A DNA stretch of 41,433 nt from Paenibacillaceae bacterium (GTDB lineage Bacteria; Bacillota; Clostridia; Lachnospirales; Lachnospiraceae). The notes under the pieces are model-generated. The model saw nothing but the letters and a program-made list of their open reading frames with translations, was not told the origin of the DNA and did no database searches. Position numbers and translations under genes: made by a program. This document shows, one piece after another, positions 13,467 to 20,535 of this stretch. Where the stretch lies: contig SVDS01000026.1 in the NCBI GenBank assembly GCA_015057715.1, positions 1-41,433 on the forward strand. Direction: 5' to 3'. Positions within the stretch are counted from its first letter, which is position 1. Each line of letters begins with the position of its first letter.

Positions 13467-14231
13467 TTAATACATAAATCCAATATTTACCCGGTTGTAT
13501 GCTTTATATAAAGTAGATGCAGACTTCGTATATGTCCAGGATTCTCCATCCAATCCTGAACCAGAGTATCCAATCCATGGATCACCCAGGGCAAATGCGG
13601 ATTTATCACTTTTCGCTCCATACACGGACATGAAATGACCATTTGTTGAATAGAGCCAGCCGTCACTGGTTGAAAAGGTCACTCCTATAATGGGAGCCGC
13701 TTTCGAAGTGGAAACACCATTGTATAATAGTCTGCACATCTCAGAGGAGGATTCATTGTATCTTCCTACGTATCTGTTCCTCGTCTGCTGACCGTTAATA
13801 TAGTTTATCATATCCGCGAGATAGGAGCCGTTGGTGGTAGTCCGGCATCCTCTTGCAATGTCCGACTGATTGCGAGAAACGCCGAGATAATTTAATGCAG
13901 CCTGAACAGTTGCCGGGCCGCAATTATAGTTAGTGATCTGGCTGTATACAGTATATCCATTTAGGTACTTCCAGGAAGTGGCTGCCTGGCGTGAAAGGCT
14001 TTGATTCAGTAAATCATCCTTCTTAACGCCTGATTTATCCTGTGGTCTTGCAGATCGGGCGCCTTTGGGAGCTTTCAGGGAATCCCCGTTTACAGGGCTG
14101 CTCTCACCACTTACAGATACTGTTTTCGCTTCTATAAATTCTTTTGTGGAATCCTCTTGTGCAGCAAAGGAGATGCTATTGGCTGACAACGCTATCGTTA
14201 AAGTCAGAAACAATAAAAGTAGCTTTTTCAT
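13467..14231 (-). CDS. Secreted C39-like cysteine peptidase domain protein
   Basis: A 254-residue secreted protein. The signal peptide MKKLLLLFLTLTIALSANSI ends near SFA-AQ (residue 24). A low-complexity, charged stretch follows (about 25-85), then a papain-like C39 fold: catalytic Cys104 in YNCGPATVQAAL, His199 in NGHFMSVYG and Asp217 in LGDPW. C39 domains of ABC exporters cut double-glycine leaders, but here there is no transporter part, so this is a free extracellular member (Peptidase_C39_2 type). The long stretch before the catalytic domain could be a propeptide. No bacteriocin or leader-peptide gene was seen nearby, so the substrate is unknown. The ribosome site is GGAGG. Confidence 0.85.
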   Translation of the reverse strand: MKKLLLLFLTLTIALSANSISFAAQEDSTKEFIEAKTVSVSGESSPVNGDSLKAPKGARSARPQDKSGVKKDDLLNQSLSRQAATSWKYLNGYTVYSQITNYNCGPATVQAALNYLGVSRNQSDIARGCRTTTNGSYLADMINYINGQQTRNRYVGRYNESSSEMCRLLYNGVSTSKAAPIIGVTFSTSDGWLYSTNGHFMSVYGAKSDKSAFALGDPWIGYSGSGLDGESWTYTKSASTLYKAYNRVNIGFMY

Positions 14232-14441: not shown

Positions 14442-14491
14442 GAACAGACCCACACAGGTTCGATTTTTACTCTACCTGTGTGGGCCTGTTC
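14442..14491 (-). terminator. Terminator after the membrane cytochrome-like gene
   Basis: 18-base arms (14442-14459 and 14474-14491) with a single mismatch around a 14-base T-rich loop. It lies 27 bases past the stop codon of the gene at 14519; the T run after it on the minus strand is weak. Confidence 0.7.
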
Positions 14492-14518: not shown

Positions 14519-14911
14519 TTAAAATCCAATGTAATAAAGCGCACCTGGTACCAGCAGATGCAAAGCGATAAAAAGAATGGCCAGTAATGCAATTCTCCTG
14601 TGCCATACTAAGATTACAGCTTTTTTCTTTATGGAAAAGAGTACTCCAAGAATTACCGCCGCAATACTGACAATCCAGGCAAGGGTACCTGTATGAAGCC
14701 GGATTGAACCAAGCGCCAGGTATCCATGAATCAGGGCAATCACTGCCAGACTAAACCCGGCAGGTTTATGAATCTTTCTAAACCTCATTCTCCAACTGGA
14801 AATCATATGATTTTTCCCTTTGTAGAATATCCGGTTAAAATGCCTCAGTAAAAACGGCATCATAACAATTGCAAACAAAACTGCGCTTATAATACCTAAC
14901 ACTTCATACAT
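14519..14911 (-). CDS. Four-helix membrane protein with two H-x13-H pairs, predicted bis-heme cytochrome b-like
   Basis: A 130-residue protein with four hydrophobic helices (about residues 4-22, 50-68, 75-94, 103-127). Histidines sit at 48 and 62 at the edges of helix 2 and at 104 and 118 of helix 4, two pairs spaced exactly 14 residues apart. Family knowledge: this spacing on two helices is how ferric-reductase and cytochrome b type proteins hold two stacked hemes across a membrane. The prediction here is therefore a small bis-heme electron carrier. The gene lies 15 bases downstream of a cytochrome b5-like lipoprotein gene, so the two probably work together to move electrons across or at the membrane. 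No flavin or NAD domain is present. Heme binding is inferred, not shown. Confidence 0.8.
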   Translation of the reverse strand: MYEVLGIISAVLFAIVMMPFLLRHFNRIFYKGKNHMISSWRMRFRKIHKPAGFSLAVIALIHGYLALGSIRLHTGTLAWIVSIAAVILGVLFSIKKKAVILVWHRRIALLAILFIALHLLVPGALYYIGF

Positions 14912-14926
14912 ATTATCGCCTCCGGT

Positions 14927-15253
14927 TTATTCCACAATTTTTCCTACTTCTTTCATCTTCTTTAAAACAGAAGTTCCGTGAGGAGATACTTTCTTAATCT
15001 CTTCTGTCAGATCCTTACCTGCCGTGTAGCCATTGTGTTCTCCGTCCTTCCACATCTTGCTTTCAGTAACATCATAGATCACGCCATCAACCGCGATATA
15101 AGCAGGATTTCCGTCTTTGCCATTATATTTTGAAAGTTCATCCAATGTAAGCTCCAGTTTTTCTGAGGATTCAGTGGTATTGTCCTGTACTTTTGAACCG
15201 GCACAGCCCGCAAGCAGGAATATAATCATGAATGAAAGTACATAAATTATCAT
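14927..15253 (-). CDS. Cytochrome b5-like heme-binding lipoprotein
   Basis: A protein of 108 residues from the ATG at 15253. A hydrophobic stretch and lipobox (LLAGC) lead into a cytochrome b5-like domain: TLDELSKYNGKDGNPAYIAV, YDVTESKMWKDGEHNGYTAG and SPHGTSVLKKM, with two histidines (GEH and SPH) in the places of the axial heme ligands. It should be anchored outside the cell. The start is odd: an AAAGGAG ribosome site is correctly placed for an upstream ATG (15265) followed by seven A residues, but that ATG runs out of frame and stops after MKKT. With eight A residues it would give MKKNMIIYVL, a proper positively charged signal-peptide start. The listed start overlaps the TGA of that minigene (ATGA). 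Confidence 0.85.
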   Translation of the reverse strand: MIIYVLSFMIIFLLAGCAGSKVQDNTTESSEKLELTLDELSKYNGKDGNPAYIAVDGVIYDVTESKMWKDGEHNGYTAGKDLTEEIKKVSPHGTSVLKKMKEVGKIVE

Positions 15254-15299
15254 GTTTTTTTCATAGAACGATCTCCTTTGTATCCTTTTTGTATTTGCT

Positions 15300-15328
15300 A
15301 TTATATCAGTATATTTGCTTTTTATCAA
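15300..15328 (-). promoter_or_regulatory. Promoter of the cytochrome b5-like lipoprotein / membrane cytochrome pair
   Basis: On the minus strand TTGATA (15323-15328), 17-base spacer, perfect TATAAT (15300-15305). It shows that the pair is transcribed independently of rnf and excludes an upstream start codon at 15328. Confidence 0.75.
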
Positions 15329-15390: not shown

Positions 15391-15441
15391 AAAAAAATGC
15401 TGTAACACAAGACTGTTAAGAAACAAGCCTGTATTACAGCA
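15391..15441 (-). terminator. Terminator of the rnf operon
   Basis: Arms TGCTGTAA (15398-15405) and TTACAGCA (15434-15441), with further pairing inside, followed on the minus strand by a run of seven T. Confidence 0.85.
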
Positions 15442-15460
15442 CTCTTATACCTATAACATT

Positions 15461-16249
15461 TTATATAATTACCTTAACCGGGCACTTGGCGGCACATTTA
15501 CCGCAATTGGTGCATTTGTCATAATCAATAATCGCAACATTATTGTCCATATGGATGGCATCAAATTCACACTGTTTGATACACATGGTACATCCAATAC
15601 AGCCCACATCGCATTTAGCCTTTACATCTTTTCCCTTATCATGGGAGTTACACTGAACTAAATACTCTGCTTTATATGGAACCATATCAATTAATGCATT
15701 GGGGCAGGAAGCCACACATTTGCCACAGGCAACGCACTTCTCCTTATCAACTACTGCAATACCGTCCACAACATGGATCGCATCAAATTCACATGCTTTC
15801 ACACAGGATCCGTATCCCATACAGCCATAAACACATGACTTCTCACCAGATCCAGGTACGACTGAAATCTTACGGCAGTCATCAATACCATAATAATTAT
15901 ACTGAACTTTCGTTTTATCACAGCTGCCTTTGCACTTAACAAAAGCGACCTTCTTCTCAGCTGAACCTGCAGCTACTCCCATGATTTCACTGATCTTTTC
16001 AGTCACAGAAGCACCACCAACCGGACAGGCACCAACATCAGCCTGACCTGCAGCAATGGCTTTTGCAAGAGCATCACACCCTGCATAGCCGCAACCGCCG
16101 CAGTTGTTGCCTGGCAGCTCATTTCTGACCATGATCTCCTTCTCGTCAACCTCAACTTTAAATTTCTCACTTGCAATGCCGAGGAATACTCCAATCAGAA
16201 TACCGATAATGCCAACAACGGCCGCCGCAAAAATAATTCCTGTTATCAT
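15461..16249 (-). CDS. rnfB: Rnf complex subunit RnfB, polyferredoxin
   Basis: A 262-residue iron-sulfur protein. One N-terminal membrane helix (about residues 3-25) is followed by an Fe-S domain with Cys50, Cys53, Cys58 and Cys75 (NNCGGCGYAGC...ACP). The C-terminal part has ferredoxin repeats with CxxCxxC...CP type motifs: around residues 143-153, CVACGKCVASCP at 172-182, CIGCTMCIKQC at 217-227 and CTNCGKCAAKCP at 246-256. RnfB takes electrons from reduced ferredoxin and passes them to the rest of the complex. It is the last gene of the operon, 18 bases after rnfA. Some clostridial RnfB are longer; the cluster motifs here look intact. Confidence 0.96.
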   Translation of the reverse strand: MITGIIFAAAVVGIIGILIGVFLGIASEKFKVEVDEKEIMVRNELPGNNCGGCGYAGCDALAKAIAAGQADVGACPVGGASVTEKISEIMGVAAGSAEKKVAFVKCKGSCDKTKVQYNYYGIDDCRKISVVPGSGEKSCVYGCMGYGSCVKACEFDAIHVVDGIAVVDKEKCVACGKCVASCPNALIDMVPYKAEYLVQCNSHDKGKDVKAKCDVGCIGCTMCIKQCEFDAIHMDNNVAIIDYDKCTNCGKCAAKCPVKVII

Positions 16250-16267
16250 ATTCTTTCGTCTCCTCCC

Positions 16268-16843
16268 TTAAATTAATCCGGAAAATCCGAAAAATGCAAT
16301 TGCCATCAGGCCAGAGGTAATCAGAACAATTGGTGATCCCTTAAAGGAATGAGGAACGTCATTATATTCGATTCTTTCACGGACACCAGCCAGCATAATA
16401 ATGGCAATGGTGAAACCAACGGAAATACCCACACCGTTTACAACGCTCTCCAGAATGTTATAGTCCTTCTGAACATTGGTCAGTGCCACACCTAAAACAG
16501 CACAGTTTGTTGTAATCAGAGGCAGATATACACCAAGCGCGTCATAAAGAGCAGGCATGGATTTCTTTAAAAACATTTCTACAAACTGTACCAGCGCTGC
16601 AATTACAAGAATAAATACGATCGTCTGTAAAAATTCCAGATGAAGACCGACCAATACACTCTTATAAATTAAGCTGGTAACAAATGATGCAATGGTAATT
16701 ACAAAGATAACAGCCGCGCCCATGCCGGCAGAAGTTTTCACATTTTTGGAAACTCCAAGGAATGGACAAAGGCCGAGGAACTGACTGAGCACTACGTTAT
16801 TAACCAGTGCGGAGCCAATGGCAATTAATAATAATTCTTTCAT
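16268..16843 (-). CDS. rnfA: Rnf complex membrane subunit RnfA
   Basis: A 191-residue integral membrane protein with about six helices. Conserved Cys26 (FLGLCPFLGVSK) and Cys114 (TTNCAVLG) are the positions that, with the matching pair in RnfE, hold a membrane-embedded [2Fe-2S] cluster in Rnf and NQR complexes. Length is normal. It lies 12 bases after rnfE. Confidence 0.97.
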   Translation of the reverse strand: MKELLLIAIGSALVNNVVLSQFLGLCPFLGVSKNVKTSAGMGAAVIFVITIASFVTSLIYKSVLVGLHLEFLQTIVFILVIAALVQFVEMFLKKSMPALYDALGVYLPLITTNCAVLGVALTNVQKDYNILESVVNGVGISVGFTIAIIMLAGVRERIEYNDVPHSFKGSPIVLITSGLMAIAFFGFSGLI

Positions 16844-16855
16844 CGATCCACTCTC

Positions 16856-17650
16856 CTATTCGTCTTTCTTGGAAGTTGCAGTTTTTAATTCTGCTTCTTT
16901 TCTGGCTACTTCTGCTTTTTTCGCTGCAAGAGCTTCTTCCTCTGCCTGTCTTTTTCTGGTCTCTAAAACTTCATGGTTTGACATGCAGGAAGAACCGGTA
17001 CAGGACATGCAGTTGCCTCCGCAGGCTAACTTAGACTGTGGAACAGAGCCGTTGGTTGCAGACGGAGCTTTAAATTTATTCTGCAAAGCAGTTAAAATTG
17101 AAAGCACAAAGAATGCACCAGGAGCCAGAACAAAAATAGCAATGTGGTAATTCTCCGGAATGATGGTGTGTCCGAATACGGCACCGGAACCCAGGATCTC
17201 ACGAACAAGTCCGATACAGGTTAAAGCTACCGTGAAGCCAAGTCCCATACCGATTCCGTCAAAGGTGGATTCTGCCACTCCGTTCTTGGAAGCATAGGAT
17301 TCTGCACGACCTAAGATAATACAGTTAACTACGATCAGCGGAATGTAGATTCCAAGAGCTGAATAAAGGCTGGGCACGTATGCCTGTAAAAGCAGCTGCA
17401 CGATGGTAACGAGAGTTGCTACAATAACAATGTAAGCCGGAATTCTGACACGATCCGGAATAATCTTACGCATAGCAGAAATAATCATATTAGAAAATAA
17501 CAGTACCACAGTTGTGGAAAGTCCCATACCTGCTCCGTTTACTGCAGATGTGGTAACAGCCAGAGTCGGACACATACCGAGCATCAGCACGAAGGTCGGG
17601 TTCTCTTTTACGATACCGTTAAATAAACGTTCTGTACATTTGTTGTTCAT
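16856..17650 (-). CDS. rnfE: Rnf complex membrane subunit RnfE with a cysteine-rich C-terminal tail
   Basis: A 264-residue protein. Residues 1-200 form the usual RnfE fold with six helices and the conserved Cys27 (LGMCPTLAV) and Cys110 (VVNCIILG), which pair with RnfA for the intramembrane cluster. RnfE is usually about 200 residues; here there is an extra tail of about 65 residues. It begins with four cysteines, Cys210, Cys214, Cys217 and Cys222, and goes on as a charged, Ala/Glu/Lys-rich helix (about 228-260), probably a coiled coil. The tail could bind metal or an Fe-S cluster or help dock RnfB; this is inference. It lies 11 bases after rnfG in the operon. Confidence 0.96.
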   Translation of the reverse strand: MNNKCTERLFNGIVKENPTFVLMLGMCPTLAVTTSAVNGAGMGLSTTVVLLFSNMIISAMRKIIPDRVRIPAYIVIVATLVTIVQLLLQAYVPSLYSALGIYIPLIVVNCIILGRAESYASKNGVAESTFDGIGMGLGFTVALTCIGLVREILGSGAVFGHTIIPENYHIAIFVLAPGAFFVLSILTALQNKFKAPSATNGSVPQSKLACGGNCMSCTGSSCMSNHEVLETRKRQAEEEALAAKKAEVARKEAELKTATSKKDE

Positions 17651-17661
17651 CTTCCCACCTC

Positions 17662-18276
17662 CTACTGATTCATATAGTGATGCACATAATACAATGCTGC
17701 ATTAACCGCATTGGTAGTAGCGCTTGATGTAATGGTTGCACCGCTGATGGCGTTGATTTCAGCATCGCCTGCATTACCTGATTTGGTTACCGTAAGTGAC
17801 TCCGCACTCTTTCCATTGTACTGATCTTTAAATGCCGGTTCTTTGGCCTTAAGACCCAAACCTGGAGTATCGCTGATTGCAAGAAACTCAATTCCGCTTA
17901 TGCTTCCATCGGCTTTAATTCCTACAGACAGTTCGATTGTACCACCGTAGCTGTCATCGGAATGGGAAGTGATGACATAACCAAGCAGTGTACCGCTTCC
18001 ATCTACCGCCTGAAGCGCATTGTTCACACCAACTTTACCAAAGTTCTGTGTGGTAAGATCTGTATTGCAGGTTTCAATGGCTGCCTTCATCTTATCATCT
18101 GACTTAAAATCAGCTGCTTCCGGAAACACTGCCTTATATGCCACAATATTTGCAGCAAGAGTTGCTTTTTCAATGGGAGCTTTCGTAATCTGATAAGCAC
18201 CGCCTAACAGGAAACCGGAAACCAGAGTAATGACAAATAAAATTAACGCGTCTTTCATATATCCGCCACTCTTCAT
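17662..18276 (-). CDS. rnfG: Rnf complex flavoprotein subunit RnfG
   Basis: A 204-residue protein with a single N-terminal membrane helix (about residues 9-30) and an extracytoplasmic FMN-binding domain. The flavin attachment motif is seen as AISGATITSS, with Thr181 the expected site of covalent FMN. The start at 18276 is chosen because the AGGAGG ribosome site sits at the end of rnfD and the ATG lies one base after the rnfD stop; longer in-frame starts would run inside rnfD. The tight spacing suggests translational coupling. Confidence 0.96.
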   Translation of the reverse strand: MKSGGYMKDALILFVITLVSGFLLGGAYQITKAPIEKATLAANIVAYKAVFPEAADFKSDDKMKAAIETCNTDLTTQNFGKVGVNNALQAVDGSGTLLGYVITSHSDDSYGGTIELSVGIKADGSISGIEFLAISDTPGLGLKAKEPAFKDQYNGKSAESLTVTKSGNAGDAEINAISGATITSSATTNAVNAALYYVHHYMNQ

Positions 18277-18277
18277 C

Positions 18278-19201
18278 TTATTTGCCCTCCTTTCCAAATG
18301 CTTTTGGAAGTGAAATCTTCTCAATCAGCGGAACCAGAATATTGCTGATGATGATTGCATAAGAAACTCCCTCTGCAGAACCTCCGAAAAGACGGAACAG
18401 ACCGGTAAGCACACCTAACAGAATTCCAAAATAGATCTGCCCCTTTATTGTAACAGGACTTGTTACATAATCGGTTGCCATAAAGAATGCACCAAATATG
18501 ATACCGCCGCCGCATAAGTGAGTCAGGACGTACATCAGGTCATGCTGTCCAAACACAAATACAAACAGAGAAAATGTAATTAAATAGGCAGCCGGAATAC
18601 GGATTGATATTACTTTTCTTGCAATTAAATATGCTGCACCAATCAGAAGGGCGATAACGGAAACTTCTCCGATTGTTCCAGGAATTTTTCCGATAAACAT
18701 AGCAGCCACATCAACTGACTGACCAGCTTTAAACGCTGCAAGAGGAGTAGGACTTACAACCGCGTCATTGTATGTAAACGTGGTCATAGGACCTGCAAAT
18801 GAGATCAGAAGAAAACATCTTGCCGCAAGGGCAGGGTTCATAAAGTTCTGTCCCAGACCGCCGTAAAGCTGTTTTACAACAATAATCGCAAACACACCGC
18901 CTAAAAATGGCATCCATAGCGGAATTGCCGGAGGCATGTTAAGTCCAAGAATCATTCCGGTTACAAGTGCACTGCCGTCACTGACAGTTACTGGTTTCCC
19001 CATAAGGGATTCAAAAACATATTCACTTAATACACAGGATAAAATGCTGACAAGTAACACCAGTGCAGCTTTTACTCCAAACTGATATACACCATACGCA
19101 GTAGCCGGGATCATGGCAATTGCAACATCCAGCATAAGATTCTGTGATGTTACCTGGTCCCTGACATGAGGTGATGATGATACGTTTAATAATTTACTCA
19201 T
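18278..19201 (-). CDS. rnfD: Rnf complex membrane subunit RnfD
   Basis: A 307-residue membrane protein with about eight or nine helices, homologous to NqrB. Conserved blocks include SDGSALVTGMILGLNMPP (residues 74-91) and GGLGQNFMNPALAARCF (114-130). The region expected to carry covalent FMN reads NDAVVSPTPLA with Thr152; in many relatives this is SGATPL, so the threonine is kept while the preceding residues differ. It lies between rnfC (11 bases) and rnfG (1 base). Confidence 0.96.
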   Translation of the reverse strand: MSKLLNVSSSPHVRDQVTSQNLMLDVAIAMIPATAYGVYQFGVKAALVLLVSILSCVLSEYVFESLMGKPVTVSDGSALVTGMILGLNMPPAIPLWMPFLGGVFAIIVVKQLYGGLGQNFMNPALAARCFLLISFAGPMTTFTYNDAVVSPTPLAAFKAGQSVDVAAMFIGKIPGTIGEVSVIALLIGAAYLIARKVISIRIPAAYLITFSLFVFVFGQHDLMYVLTHLCGGGIIFGAFFMATDYVTSPVTIKGQIYFGILLGVLTGLFRLFGGSAEGVSYAIIISNILVPLIEKISLPKAFGKEGK

Positions 19202-19212
19202 ACTTCACTCTC

Positions 19213-20535
19213 CTACGCTTTTTTTCTGCTTGCGATAACTGTTTTGCGCATCTCTTTAAACGCCTGGGTTAATGGCAGTTTCGCCGGACAGGCATATGCA
19301 CAGCAGCCGCATTCGCAGCATTCCATACCATCTAATTTTACAAATGTATCTATGTCAGATCTCATAGCTGCCTGCATCATCATCTGTGGAACCACGCGGC
19401 TTGGACATACATTGACACATCTGCCGCAACGGATGCAGGCAGTAGGTGCATTTAGTGCAACCTCATCCTTTGACATGCAGGTAAGCGCAGAGGAGGTTTT
19501 GGTAACAGGAATATTCATGTTAAACAATGCCTGCCCCATCATGGGTCCTCCGGAAATTACTTTCTCCGGTTCTGTTTTAAATCCGCCGGAAGCCTCTAAC
19601 AGCTCGGCATAATTTGTTCCTGTTCTCACATTATAGTTCTGTGGGTTTGCAATCGCATCGCCGGTAACTGTTACAATTCTTCTGATTAATGGAGTGGAAT
19701 TTGCAACAGCATTGTAAATGGATATCACCGTATCCACGTTATCCACGATGCAGCCTGCATCAGCCGGAAGCATGGAAGAGTTGATCTTTCTTCCTGTTAC
19801 CGCATAGATTAAAGCACGCTCTCCACCCTGTGGATATTTTGTCTTTAAGGGGCAAACCGTGATTCTTGGCTCATCTTTTACAAGCTCCGTCATCACTTTA
19901 ATTGCCTCTGGTTTATTGTCTTCAATTCCGATCACACCTTTTGCATTATCAAACAGCTGAAGAATGATATTCAGACCTTTAATAATACTTTCCGGCTCTT
20001 CCAGCATCATCCGATAATCGGAAGTCAGATATGGTTCGCATTCTGCTCCGTTAACGATAATCGTATCAATCTTTGACTCATCCTTTGGTGTAAGCTTTAC
20101 ATGTGTAGGAAAACCTGCACCGCCAAGTCCTACAATGCCGGATTCCTTTACGATATCACGTATCTCCTCTTTTGACAGGGATTTGGGATCCCGCTGTTTT
20201 CCAAAACCTTCCGCTTCCTGATATTTGCCATCATTATCAACAATGATTGACATTACCATGGAGCCGTTGGCAACCATTCTTGGTTCAATGGTTTTTACTG
20301 TTCCTGAAACAGAACTGATCACACAGGCAGAAATAAAACCGCCTGCTTCTCCGATCTTCTGACCAACTAATACCTGATCACCTGCTGCCACCAGAGGCTT
20401 CGCAGGAGCACCGATATGCTGGGATAGCGGGAACACCATCTCGCCTTTTGGCTGCAGTACCTGCACAGGTTTATTTTCCGACAATTCTTTTCCTTCATAG
20501 GTGTGAATGCCGCCTTTAAATGTAGCCAAACCCAT
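19213..20535 (-). CDS. rnfC: Rnf complex NADH-binding subunit RnfC
   Basis: A 440-residue peripheral protein that connects the complex with NAD. It has the nucleotide/FMN region VGLGGAGFPTHVKLTP at about residues 134-150 and VNGAECEPYLTSDYR, as in RnfC and NuoF, and two C-terminal [4Fe-4S] motifs: CIRCGRCVNVCP at about 367 and CCECGCCAYACP at about 406. It is the first gene of rnfCDGEAB, the clostridial gene order, with promoter at 20606-20634. Confidence 0.97.
   Translation of the reverse strand: MGLATFKGGIHTYEGKELSENKPVQVLQPKGEMVFPLSQHIGAPAKPLVAAGDQVLVGQKIGEAGGFISACVISSVSGTVKTIEPRMVANGSMVMSIIVDNDGKYQEAEGFGKQRDPKSLSKEEIRDIVKESGIVGLGGAGFPTHVKLTPKDESKIDTIIVNGAECEPYLTSDYRMMLEEPESIIKGLNIILQLFDNAKGVIGIEDNKPEAIKVMTELVKDEPRITVCPLKTKYPQGGERALIYAVTGRKINSSMLPADAGCIVDNVDTVISIYNAVANSTPLIRRIVTVTGDAIANPQNYNVRTGTNYAELLEASGGFKTEPEKVISGGPMMGQALFNMNIPVTKTSSALTCMSKDEVALNAPTACIRCGRCVNVCPSRVVPQMMMQAAMRSDIDTFVKLDGMECCECGCCAYACPAKLPLTQAFKEMRKTVIASRKKA

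Follow-up and report, generated by a model that had tools for sequence, protein, structure and literature searches.

What do two small genes, one for a 130-residue membrane protein and one for a cytochrome b5-like lipoprotein, do immediately after an rnf operon in a member of the Lachnospiraceae? Both lie on a 41,433-nucleotide contig (SVDS01000026.1 of assembly GCA_015057715.1; this whole stretch is called the window below), and a first-pass annotation had suggested that they form a minimal module carrying electrons from the membrane to an external acceptor. Our analysis, carried out in silico, confirmed the observation and supports the reading. The best explanation, to which we give a probability of roughly 0.78, is that the pair is a minimal transmembrane heme electron conduit with the b5 domain as its outer head. 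This draws on the gene pair itself, the conservation of histidines, the recurrent co-location and fusion of the two parts (with an FMN-binding domain in the b5 position of some relatives), the charge topology, and the b5 fold, whereas heme occupancy, outward direction, donor, and acceptor are what we infer from them. Both open reading frames, together spanning 14519 to 15253, proved to be real as annotated:

14519 to 14911, minus strand: gene for the four-transmembrane-helix (4TM) protein, a 130-residue four-helix membrane protein (P0001); open reading frame, predicted bis-heme b cytochrome.
14927 to 15253, minus strand: gene for an extracytosolic cytochrome b5-domain lipoprotein (P0002); PF00173 match, lipobox LLAGC.

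The 4TM protein has histidines at positions 24, 35, 48, 62, 73, 104, and 118. Predicted helices 2 and 4 carry H48/H62 and H104/H118, the members of each pair being 14 residues apart (H-X13-H), in agreement with the two equally spaced pairs on two helices that had been pointed out before. By itself the pattern is only mildly unusual and would be weak evidence: at least two H-X13-H pairs arose in 2704 of 100000 shuffles of the protein (2.7%). Its significance comes from conservation across relatives, not from the shuffle odds. When the window protein was aligned with ten relatives (11 rows, 24 to 82% identity to the window protein), H48, H62, H104, and H118 were the only invariant columns, while H24, H35, and H73 varied, so that the idea survived the check on conservation in homologs. 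Both pairs are also kept in 25 of the 26 loci that order and phylum scans recovered outside the window's own genome, the exception being L139.

An AlphaFold2 model of the 4TM protein (pLDDT 85.5) places helices at residues 2 to 30, 35 to 67, 74 to 95, and 98 to 120, and hydropathy gives four helices in the Lacrimispora copies. Many of the model's best structural neighbors are membrane proteins with heme b, among them SpNOX, STEAP, superoxide oxidase, and b6f; the designed diheme bundle 4D2 is a further match. Among solved chains, phmmer returned one irrelevant match at E 1.5 and a profile search returned none, and an NCBIfam search gave no fitting family. A positive-inside charge bias, present in 11 of 11 rows, puts the C terminus outside. 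This topology would make either kind of outer domain, b5 or FMN, extracytosolic, and it agrees with the lipobox of the separate b5 protein. We predict that the 4TM protein is a bis-heme b cytochrome in which H48 and H104 are the ligands of an inner heme and H62 and H118 those of an outer heme.

The b5 partner is more readily classified. P0002 matches PF00173 at E 1.1e-9 (38.7 bits, above the cut-off of 23.7) and has the lipobox LLAGC, recognized by eye. It matches the archaeal b5 structures 6nzx_A (1.3e-16) and 6vz6_A (2.5e-16), with which both axial histidines (EH and PH) align, bearing out the earlier description of a lipoprotein with the two axial histidines of a b5 fold. These residues are H73 and H92 in P0002 numbering, both invariant in four rows. 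In a 15-row alignment, H73 is invariant and both histidines are kept in the 13 non-hydrogenase rows; the second is displaced by one in the two hydrogenase-type rows. From its sequence, P0002 is predicted to bind heme b. The same archaeal proteins, 6vz6 from Methanococcoides burtonii and 6nzx from Hadesarchaea, match the b5 part of a model of the fused protein L090 (root mean square deviation, 1.0 A; 48 to 49% identity), to which PGRMC1 is a distant structural match. Those chains are single domains of 78 residues, whereas the window b5 adds a lipid anchor and a membrane partner. One candidate source on b5 proteins, PMC8578096, was set aside, as the term in the accessible part of that paper denotes cytochrome b559/b554.

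How widely the two genes travel together was examined from both sides. Matches of the b5 gene to named relatives, at 97 to 98% in Lacrimispora xylanisolvens and Lacrimispora defluvii, indicate that the window belongs to Lacrimispora; the metagenome-assembled genome (MAG) "Paenibacillaceae SIG288," which has the b5 gene at 100%, is probably mislabeled. The own genome (G000, in which the window is contig C278) is an assembly of 5.40 Mb in 283 contigs. The b5 gene adjoins the 4TM gene in 8 of 25 Lacrimispora genomes, two of them cut by contig ends. Apart from the own genome, the 4TM gene is open and full length in six (82 to 99% identity) and truncated where the contig stops in a seventh, and the b5 gene is found in the same seven at 90 to 100%, cut in one. 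When the family was scanned with P0001, 19 of 397 genomes gave a match at E ≤ 0.01; besides the own genome, G392 (another genus of the family), G093, G313, and G299 were kept. Among the other 14, L041 to L046, L052, and L053 were judged unrelated, and L047, L048, L050, and L054 to L056 (internal stops) were left out. The order and phylum scans gave at least 10 of 295 and at least 16 of 398 genomes, respectively, both including the own genome; scoring was restricted to the top 14 (order) and top 10 (phylum) candidates in each genome, so that the true counts may be higher.

Each of the 26 loci from these two scans was fetched with 1.5 kb on either side. In eight, the adjoining gene on that strand encodes a b5 protein (L114 to L118, L125, L126, and L128, from four genera), in six an FMN-binding domain is fused after helix 4 (L119 to L121, L132, L135, and L138), and in 12 neither domain occurs within that distance. 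Pfam confirmed FMN_bind in L119, L132, and L138, and in L059 from the family scan; in L120, L121, and L135 it was recognized by its flavinylation-site motif. Separate pairs also occur in G392, L079, L081, and L082, with divergent orientation in L106, and the 4TM and b5 parts are fused in L090 and in L058/L092, from one Lachnospiraceae MAG. The co-occurrence proposed as a check is thus found in several Bacillota lineages, as adjacency or as fusion.

Seen from the other side, few genomes of the family have a b5 relative (12 of 397 at E ≤ 1e-6). A scan of genome contigs gave 39 loci with a b5 relative, 14 of which encode lipobox proteins by eye; nine of these adjoin a 4TM gene directly (five being Lacrimispora or near-copies), L076 and L096 are cut by a contig end, and L080, L085, and L098 lack a 4TM neighbor. 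All 13 separate b5 partners in non-Lacrimispora pairs carry a lipobox, again by eye. With one or two b5 genes per genome of a few thousand genes, chance adjacency should be, by a rough estimate, of the order of one in a thousand per locus.

The same scaffold appears with two different outer domains. In the FMN_bind fusions (L059, L119 to L121, L132, L135, and L138) the 4TM part is homologous, has the same four histidines, and is followed after helix 4 by a redox domain that would lie outside; their outer cofactor would be covalent FMN, whereas that of the window would be b5 heme. As FMN_bind occupies the b5 position in sister proteins, we regard the outer slot as a slot for redox domains. A tree of 36 rows (17 b5, 7 FMN, 12 alone) was built without L139, a second locus of G818 that lacks H-X13-H, without G019, and without near-copies of the window 4TM protein. 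Its labels need six changes against a shuffled mean of 15.9, with 0 of 200 shuffles as low, although near-copies inflate the clustering. The b5-paired and FMN-fused forms lie on different sides of the midpoint, divided by a weak branch (74/80), and the fusion proteins L058 and L090 share a branch with three stand-alone forms.

In the conduit that we propose, the 4TM protein would have both termini outside and would bind two b hemes, stacked one above the other across the membrane. Helices 2 and 4 would each supply one histidine per heme, H48 and H104 on the cytosol side and H62 and H118 on the outer side. The inner heme would be reduced from the cytosol, probably by a flavoprotein or iron-sulfur protein of low potential and not by a quinol. 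The electron would then pass to the outer heme, to the heme of the lipid-anchored b5 protein, and from there to an acceptor outside the cell, for which an extracellular reductase of the flavin type or a soluble acceptor is most likely. Regarding the donor, menaquinone synthesis needs UbiA. UbiA was not found in the Lacrimispora genomes G000, G003, G017, and G023, nor in G392 (control positive in 14 of 14), and it is present in 6 of 15 genomes tested, including three with a separate pair in the same order. A quinol is consequently disfavored as donor in Lacrimispora, and the donor is probably a cytosolic protein. At a single locus, L059, an FMN_red flavoprotein gene precedes the FMN-fused form, and its product is a plausible donor.

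As for the acceptor, there is a real prospect, short of an even chance, that the b5 protein feeds an extracellular flavoprotein reductase of the fumarate or enoate reductase kind, replacing the flavinylated domain of other Gram-positive bacteria. At L079 an FAD_binding_2 flavoprotein (PF00890, 74.5 bits) is encoded on the same strand as the b5 protein, only 10 nt separating the end of its gene from the b5 gene that follows, and FMN-binding domains are known to wire such reductases, according to the accessible portion of PMC8238504. The L079 protein is a plausible acceptor, but this is a single case in which the N terminus, and hence any signal peptide, is lost at a contig end, and by eye no such gene stands beside the pair in Lacrimispora or G392. 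It is unlikely that the conduit serves as an assimilatory surface iron reductase, reducing Fe(III) outside for uptake of Fe(II). MsrQ-like, PepSY, and FezC relatives are tied to iron reduction or storage in the available parts of two papers (PMC8238504 and PMC11334425), and a surface site of b5 could reduce ferric chelates. However, no iron transporter was noticed among the genes displayed around pairs or the window genes scanned, an unsystematic survey in which some window genes were unscanned, and the neighbor at L079 is a flavoprotein.

The position of the pair raises a third possibility, an accessory outlet by which electrons leave Rnf through the 4TM and b5 proteins, as proposed for MmcA in Methanosarcina acetivorans, where the mmcA gene is presumably near rnf. 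Within Lacrimispora, the pair lies directly downstream of rnfB at every locus viewed that shows both. MmcA takes part in external electron transfer, as far as the accessible text of PMC6703419 goes, and Rnf with MmcA resembles the window pair in supplying a cytochrome for that purpose. On the same partial source, MmcA is a multiheme c cytochrome, whereas the window module is b-type, has its own operon, and lies in an rnf neighborhood that is not conserved. rnfB (E ≤ 1e-60) occurs in 19 of 25 Lacrimispora genomes, and the pair follows it in seven (G000, G003, G004, G017, G018, G019 with its 4TM gene cut by the contig end, and G023). The other 12 lack the pair after rnfB: one, G020, has a b5 remnant only, and 11 have a Peptidase_C39-like (C39) gene, UxaC, or other genes there. 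Outside Lacrimispora no pair was seen by eye beside rnf in the stretches viewed, and the adjacency is confined to a Lacrimispora clade. A strong terminator and the pair's own promoter also lie between rnf and the pair. With so inconstant a neighborhood, Rnf is a neighbor and not a demonstrated partner; we rejected the partnership on synteny, in keeping with the earlier remark that the link is merely positional, and we consider the outlet improbable. The remnant in G020 (L158, G020:C116:24895-24990) lies between rnfB and the C39 gene, with the 4TM gene gone, and we take it as a recent loss of the module.

Several points limit this reading. Heme is inferred and was never observed, menaquinol is an unlikely electron source in Lacrimispora, and the weakest point is heme supply. 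A search for ferrochelatase (PF00762) found none in 12 genomes (eight with a separate pair, one with a fusion, and three Lacrimispora without the pair), with the control positive in 8 of 14 known genomes. AhbA was above its cut-off in only 3 of 34 genomes (G000, G001, and G1067), and in 1 of the 16 with a separate pair (the own genome, seven tested for both proteins, and eight for AhbA only). Neither protein was above cut-off in those seven (G003, G004, G017, G023, G392, G453, and G533), which would need imported heme or an unrecognized route. Strict pairing is also not upheld from the membrane side: in 18 genomes with the 4TM protein alone (12) or FMN-fused (6), b5 proteins were found in four at E ≤ 1e-5. 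Of the three inspected, two (L176 and L178) are linked to hydrogenase, which leaves L175 as the one that looks exported; the fourth is L177.

The check for heme synthesis genes had a mixed outcome. The own genome has a NirJ1-AhbA-AhbB cluster (L145:4130-6326, G000:C89), all above cut-offs, and, next to an iron-type ABC transporter, a NirJ2 gene (L144:2305-4268, G000:C87) that is also above cut-off. These genes suggest that heme, or a d1-like heme, is made by way of siroheme. AhbA was not found in six other pair-bearing Lacrimispora genomes tested. This patchiness reflects either variable heme synthesis by the siroheme route or contamination; the contamination listed for the own assembly is 4.42%, and contig C89 may therefore be foreign. 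A strong match to TIGR04545 (AhbD) in the own genome was discarded, as the protein fits NirJ2 best (TIGR04055, 527 versus 500 bits); at E ≤ 0.001 TIGR04545 is unspecific, with matches in all 14 controls, and no test genome was above its cut-off.

The shortage of heme synthesis genes bears on a reading without electron transfer, in which the b5 protein is a MAPR-like carrier of heme or another ligand and the 4TM protein is a membrane transporter or chaperone for heme or small molecules. The seven pair genomes just listed make heme import conceivable, and PGRMC1 appears among the distant structural matches of the fusion model. Two bis-histidine pairs across a bilayer are typical of electron conduits, though, and FMN_bind in the same slot is a redox domain, so that we hold this role to be very improbable. 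Least probable of all is a superoxide oxidase-like function or a defense against oxygen or peroxide, with the 4TM protein resembling Escherichia coli CybB and taking electrons from superoxide: CybB reduces ubiquinone, no UbiA turned up in the four Lacrimispora genomes or in G392, PF01292 is below cut-off in four relatives, and the b5 or FMN partner would be left unexplained.

The 4TM protein lies outside the three known families tested. Against PF01794 (Ferric_reduct/MsrQ-like) it scored 13.8 bits, below the cut-off of 28, and four relatives scored 13.6 to 22.6 bits; all 11 alignment rows give a weak match, the best at E 7.6e-4. It had no match at E ≤ 1 to PF14358 (DUF4405), for which 7 of 11 rows matched weakly (best E 0.005, or 17.8 bits against a cut-off of 26.7). 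Nor did it match PF01292 (b561/superoxide oxidase) at E ≤ 1, and four relatives reached 9.0 to 17.5 bits against 30.1. We exclude it from all three families on these scores, and from PF01794 and PF14358 also because its helix count is unlike six. Ferric_reduct/MsrQ-like proteins are expected to have six helices and the model has four, although their pattern of two bis-histidine sites on two helices, about 13 to 14 residues apart, is present in the sequence. By Pfam, the window pair has neither an FMN_bind domain nor an FMN_bind partner. CybB (5oc0) and bacterial b561 proteins differ in that PF01292 was not reached and UbiA was not found in Lacrimispora, and we know of no b5 partner for either.

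The nearest kinds are MsrQ-like, PepSY, and DUF4405 cytochromes, and by analogy the window module may work like the MsrQ-like and DUF4405/FezC systems. MsrQ-like proteins have six helices, two hemes, and flavinylated partners, and their clusters are mainly actinobacterial, as described in the available part of PMC8238504. The likeness lies in two heme-binding sites in a membrane protein, a redox partner domain outside, and weak PF01794 similarity. The window 4TM protein has instead four helices, no NAD-binding domain, and a b5 partner in place of FMN_bind, and modules of its type occur here in Bacillota. DUF4405 and FezC bind heme, heme b in the case of DUF4405, which has six helices and is tied to apbE or ferrosomes (PMC11334425, accessible part). 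On that partial account, they share with the window protein a small membrane cytochrome with four central histidines, from which the latter differs in its four helices and in matching the family only weakly.

The pair is set apart from its surroundings by the following features:

15461 to 20535, minus strand: rnfCDGEAB operon, a neighbor outside the module (C, D, G, and B by profile; A and E by position and sequence only).
15393 to 15446, minus strand: Rho-independent terminator of the rnf operon, between rnf and the pair (-30.4 kcal/mol, z -6.3, then a T run).
15300 to 15328, minus strand: promoter of the b5-4TM pair, TTGATA, 17 nt, TATAAT, with TG in front (consensus scan, 11/12 positions).
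15273 to 15279, minus strand: Shine-Dalgarno sequence AAAGGAG of the b5 gene, from the sequence.
15254 to 15264, minus strand: ATG at 15264 with good spacing from the ribosome-binding site, then an A run of seven bases; not in the reading frame of the lipoprotein (comparison with relatives).
14442 to 14491, both strands: long near-perfect hairpin 3' of the 4TM gene, between the 4TM and C39 genes (-37.5 kcal/mol on the minus and -31.4 on the plus strand).
13467 to 14231, minus strand: Peptidase_C39-like secreted protein, the next gene downstream, outside the module (PF13529, E 2.2e-9).

With a gap of 15 nt between them, the b5 and 4TM genes form a two-gene unit with its own promoter, the rnf terminator upstream, and the long hairpin downstream. 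A separate promoter and an intervening terminator had both been claimed, and both claims held. The promoter is the best of eight promoter-like sites in the region, against 5.7 expected from the shuffle mean. The terminator hairpin was equaled in stability by 0 of 200 shuffles; it is absent from the list of the consensus terminator scan because its loop falls outside the limits of that scan. None of 200 shuffles was as stable as the hairpin at 14442 to 14491 on either strand, and it lacks a strong T run; it is possibly the transcript end of the pair. A terminator-like site at 14540 to 14562, inside the 4TM gene, was set aside as chance (one found, shuffle mean 0.7). The FMN_bind protein near the pair is RnfG of the rnf operon, and the C39 gene directly follows rnfB in G010, a genome without the pair.

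The start of the b5 gene deserves comment. Relatives have an 8-base A run where the window has seven, and their b5 protein begins MKKNMIIY; with one base fewer, the ATG at 15264 is not in frame with the gene. On the sequence as it stands, the start would have to be at 15253, giving a protein without the Lys-Lys n-region of its relatives. The 7-base run is either a real variant or an assembly error. A TTG start at 15328, proposed by the open reading frame caller, was rejected, as it falls within the promoter.

Other b5 proteins were met in passing. At L064:1-1806, a b5 lipoprotein is divergent to an apparent ferric reductase with a flavin/NAD domain (by eye), possibly another membrane partner. 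Signal-less b5 proteins (by eye) are encoded directly upstream of [NiFe]-hydrogenase genes at L035:1042-2647 (own genome, G000:C13), L021, L022, L028, L031, L066, L070, L176, L178, and L109, in several Lacrimispora and other Clostridia, the small subunit being Pfam-confirmed in L035 and L109 only; these are possibly redox partners of the hydrogenase. At L017, L019, L020, and L030 the b5 gene has neighbors other than hydrogenase. Tandem b5 genes occur at L087, L089, and L091 (Limosilactobacillus and Lactobacillus), the first copy without the usual heme-ligand histidines and the other normal, and L099:3234-4448, from a Clostridium MAG, encodes a 404-residue protein with apparently four b5 repeats, several without ligand histidines. 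In L100 and L104 (Sulfurovum) and L111 (Geoglobus), the b5 domain sits within a membrane protein that also has, near its N terminus, a CxxCH c-heme motif.

What is new here is a minimal four-helix scaffold with an exported b5 protein as outer head. In the titles and abstract beginnings of the open literature we found no description of a b5 lipoprotein with a small diheme membrane protein; subscription papers were mostly outside this scope, so that unpublished status is unproven. Known routes of electron export in Gram-positive bacteria rest mainly on flavins or multiheme c cytochromes. More tentatively, and at somewhat less than even odds, the pair may represent a class of export by b hemes alone, made of a stand-alone four-helix diheme protein and a lipid-anchored b5 protein. 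Fermenting Firmicutes without evident quinone synthesis, several of them without recognized heme synthesis, would then draw on environmental heme to pass electrons to the outside, and b5 and covalent flavin would be interchangeable as the outer head of a single scaffold. If the conduit is real, a two-gene module of about 240 residues would export electrons using only b hemes, and would do so in a genus where UbiA was not found. It would provide a natural heme wire through the membrane that is very small and has a detachable outer head, and it would account for a set of unannotated small membrane proteins. The use of b5 and FMN domains by one scaffold would also offer a direct test case for the exchange of flavins and cytochromes in extracytosolic systems put forward by Meheust and colleagues, as set out in the accessible part of PMC8238504.
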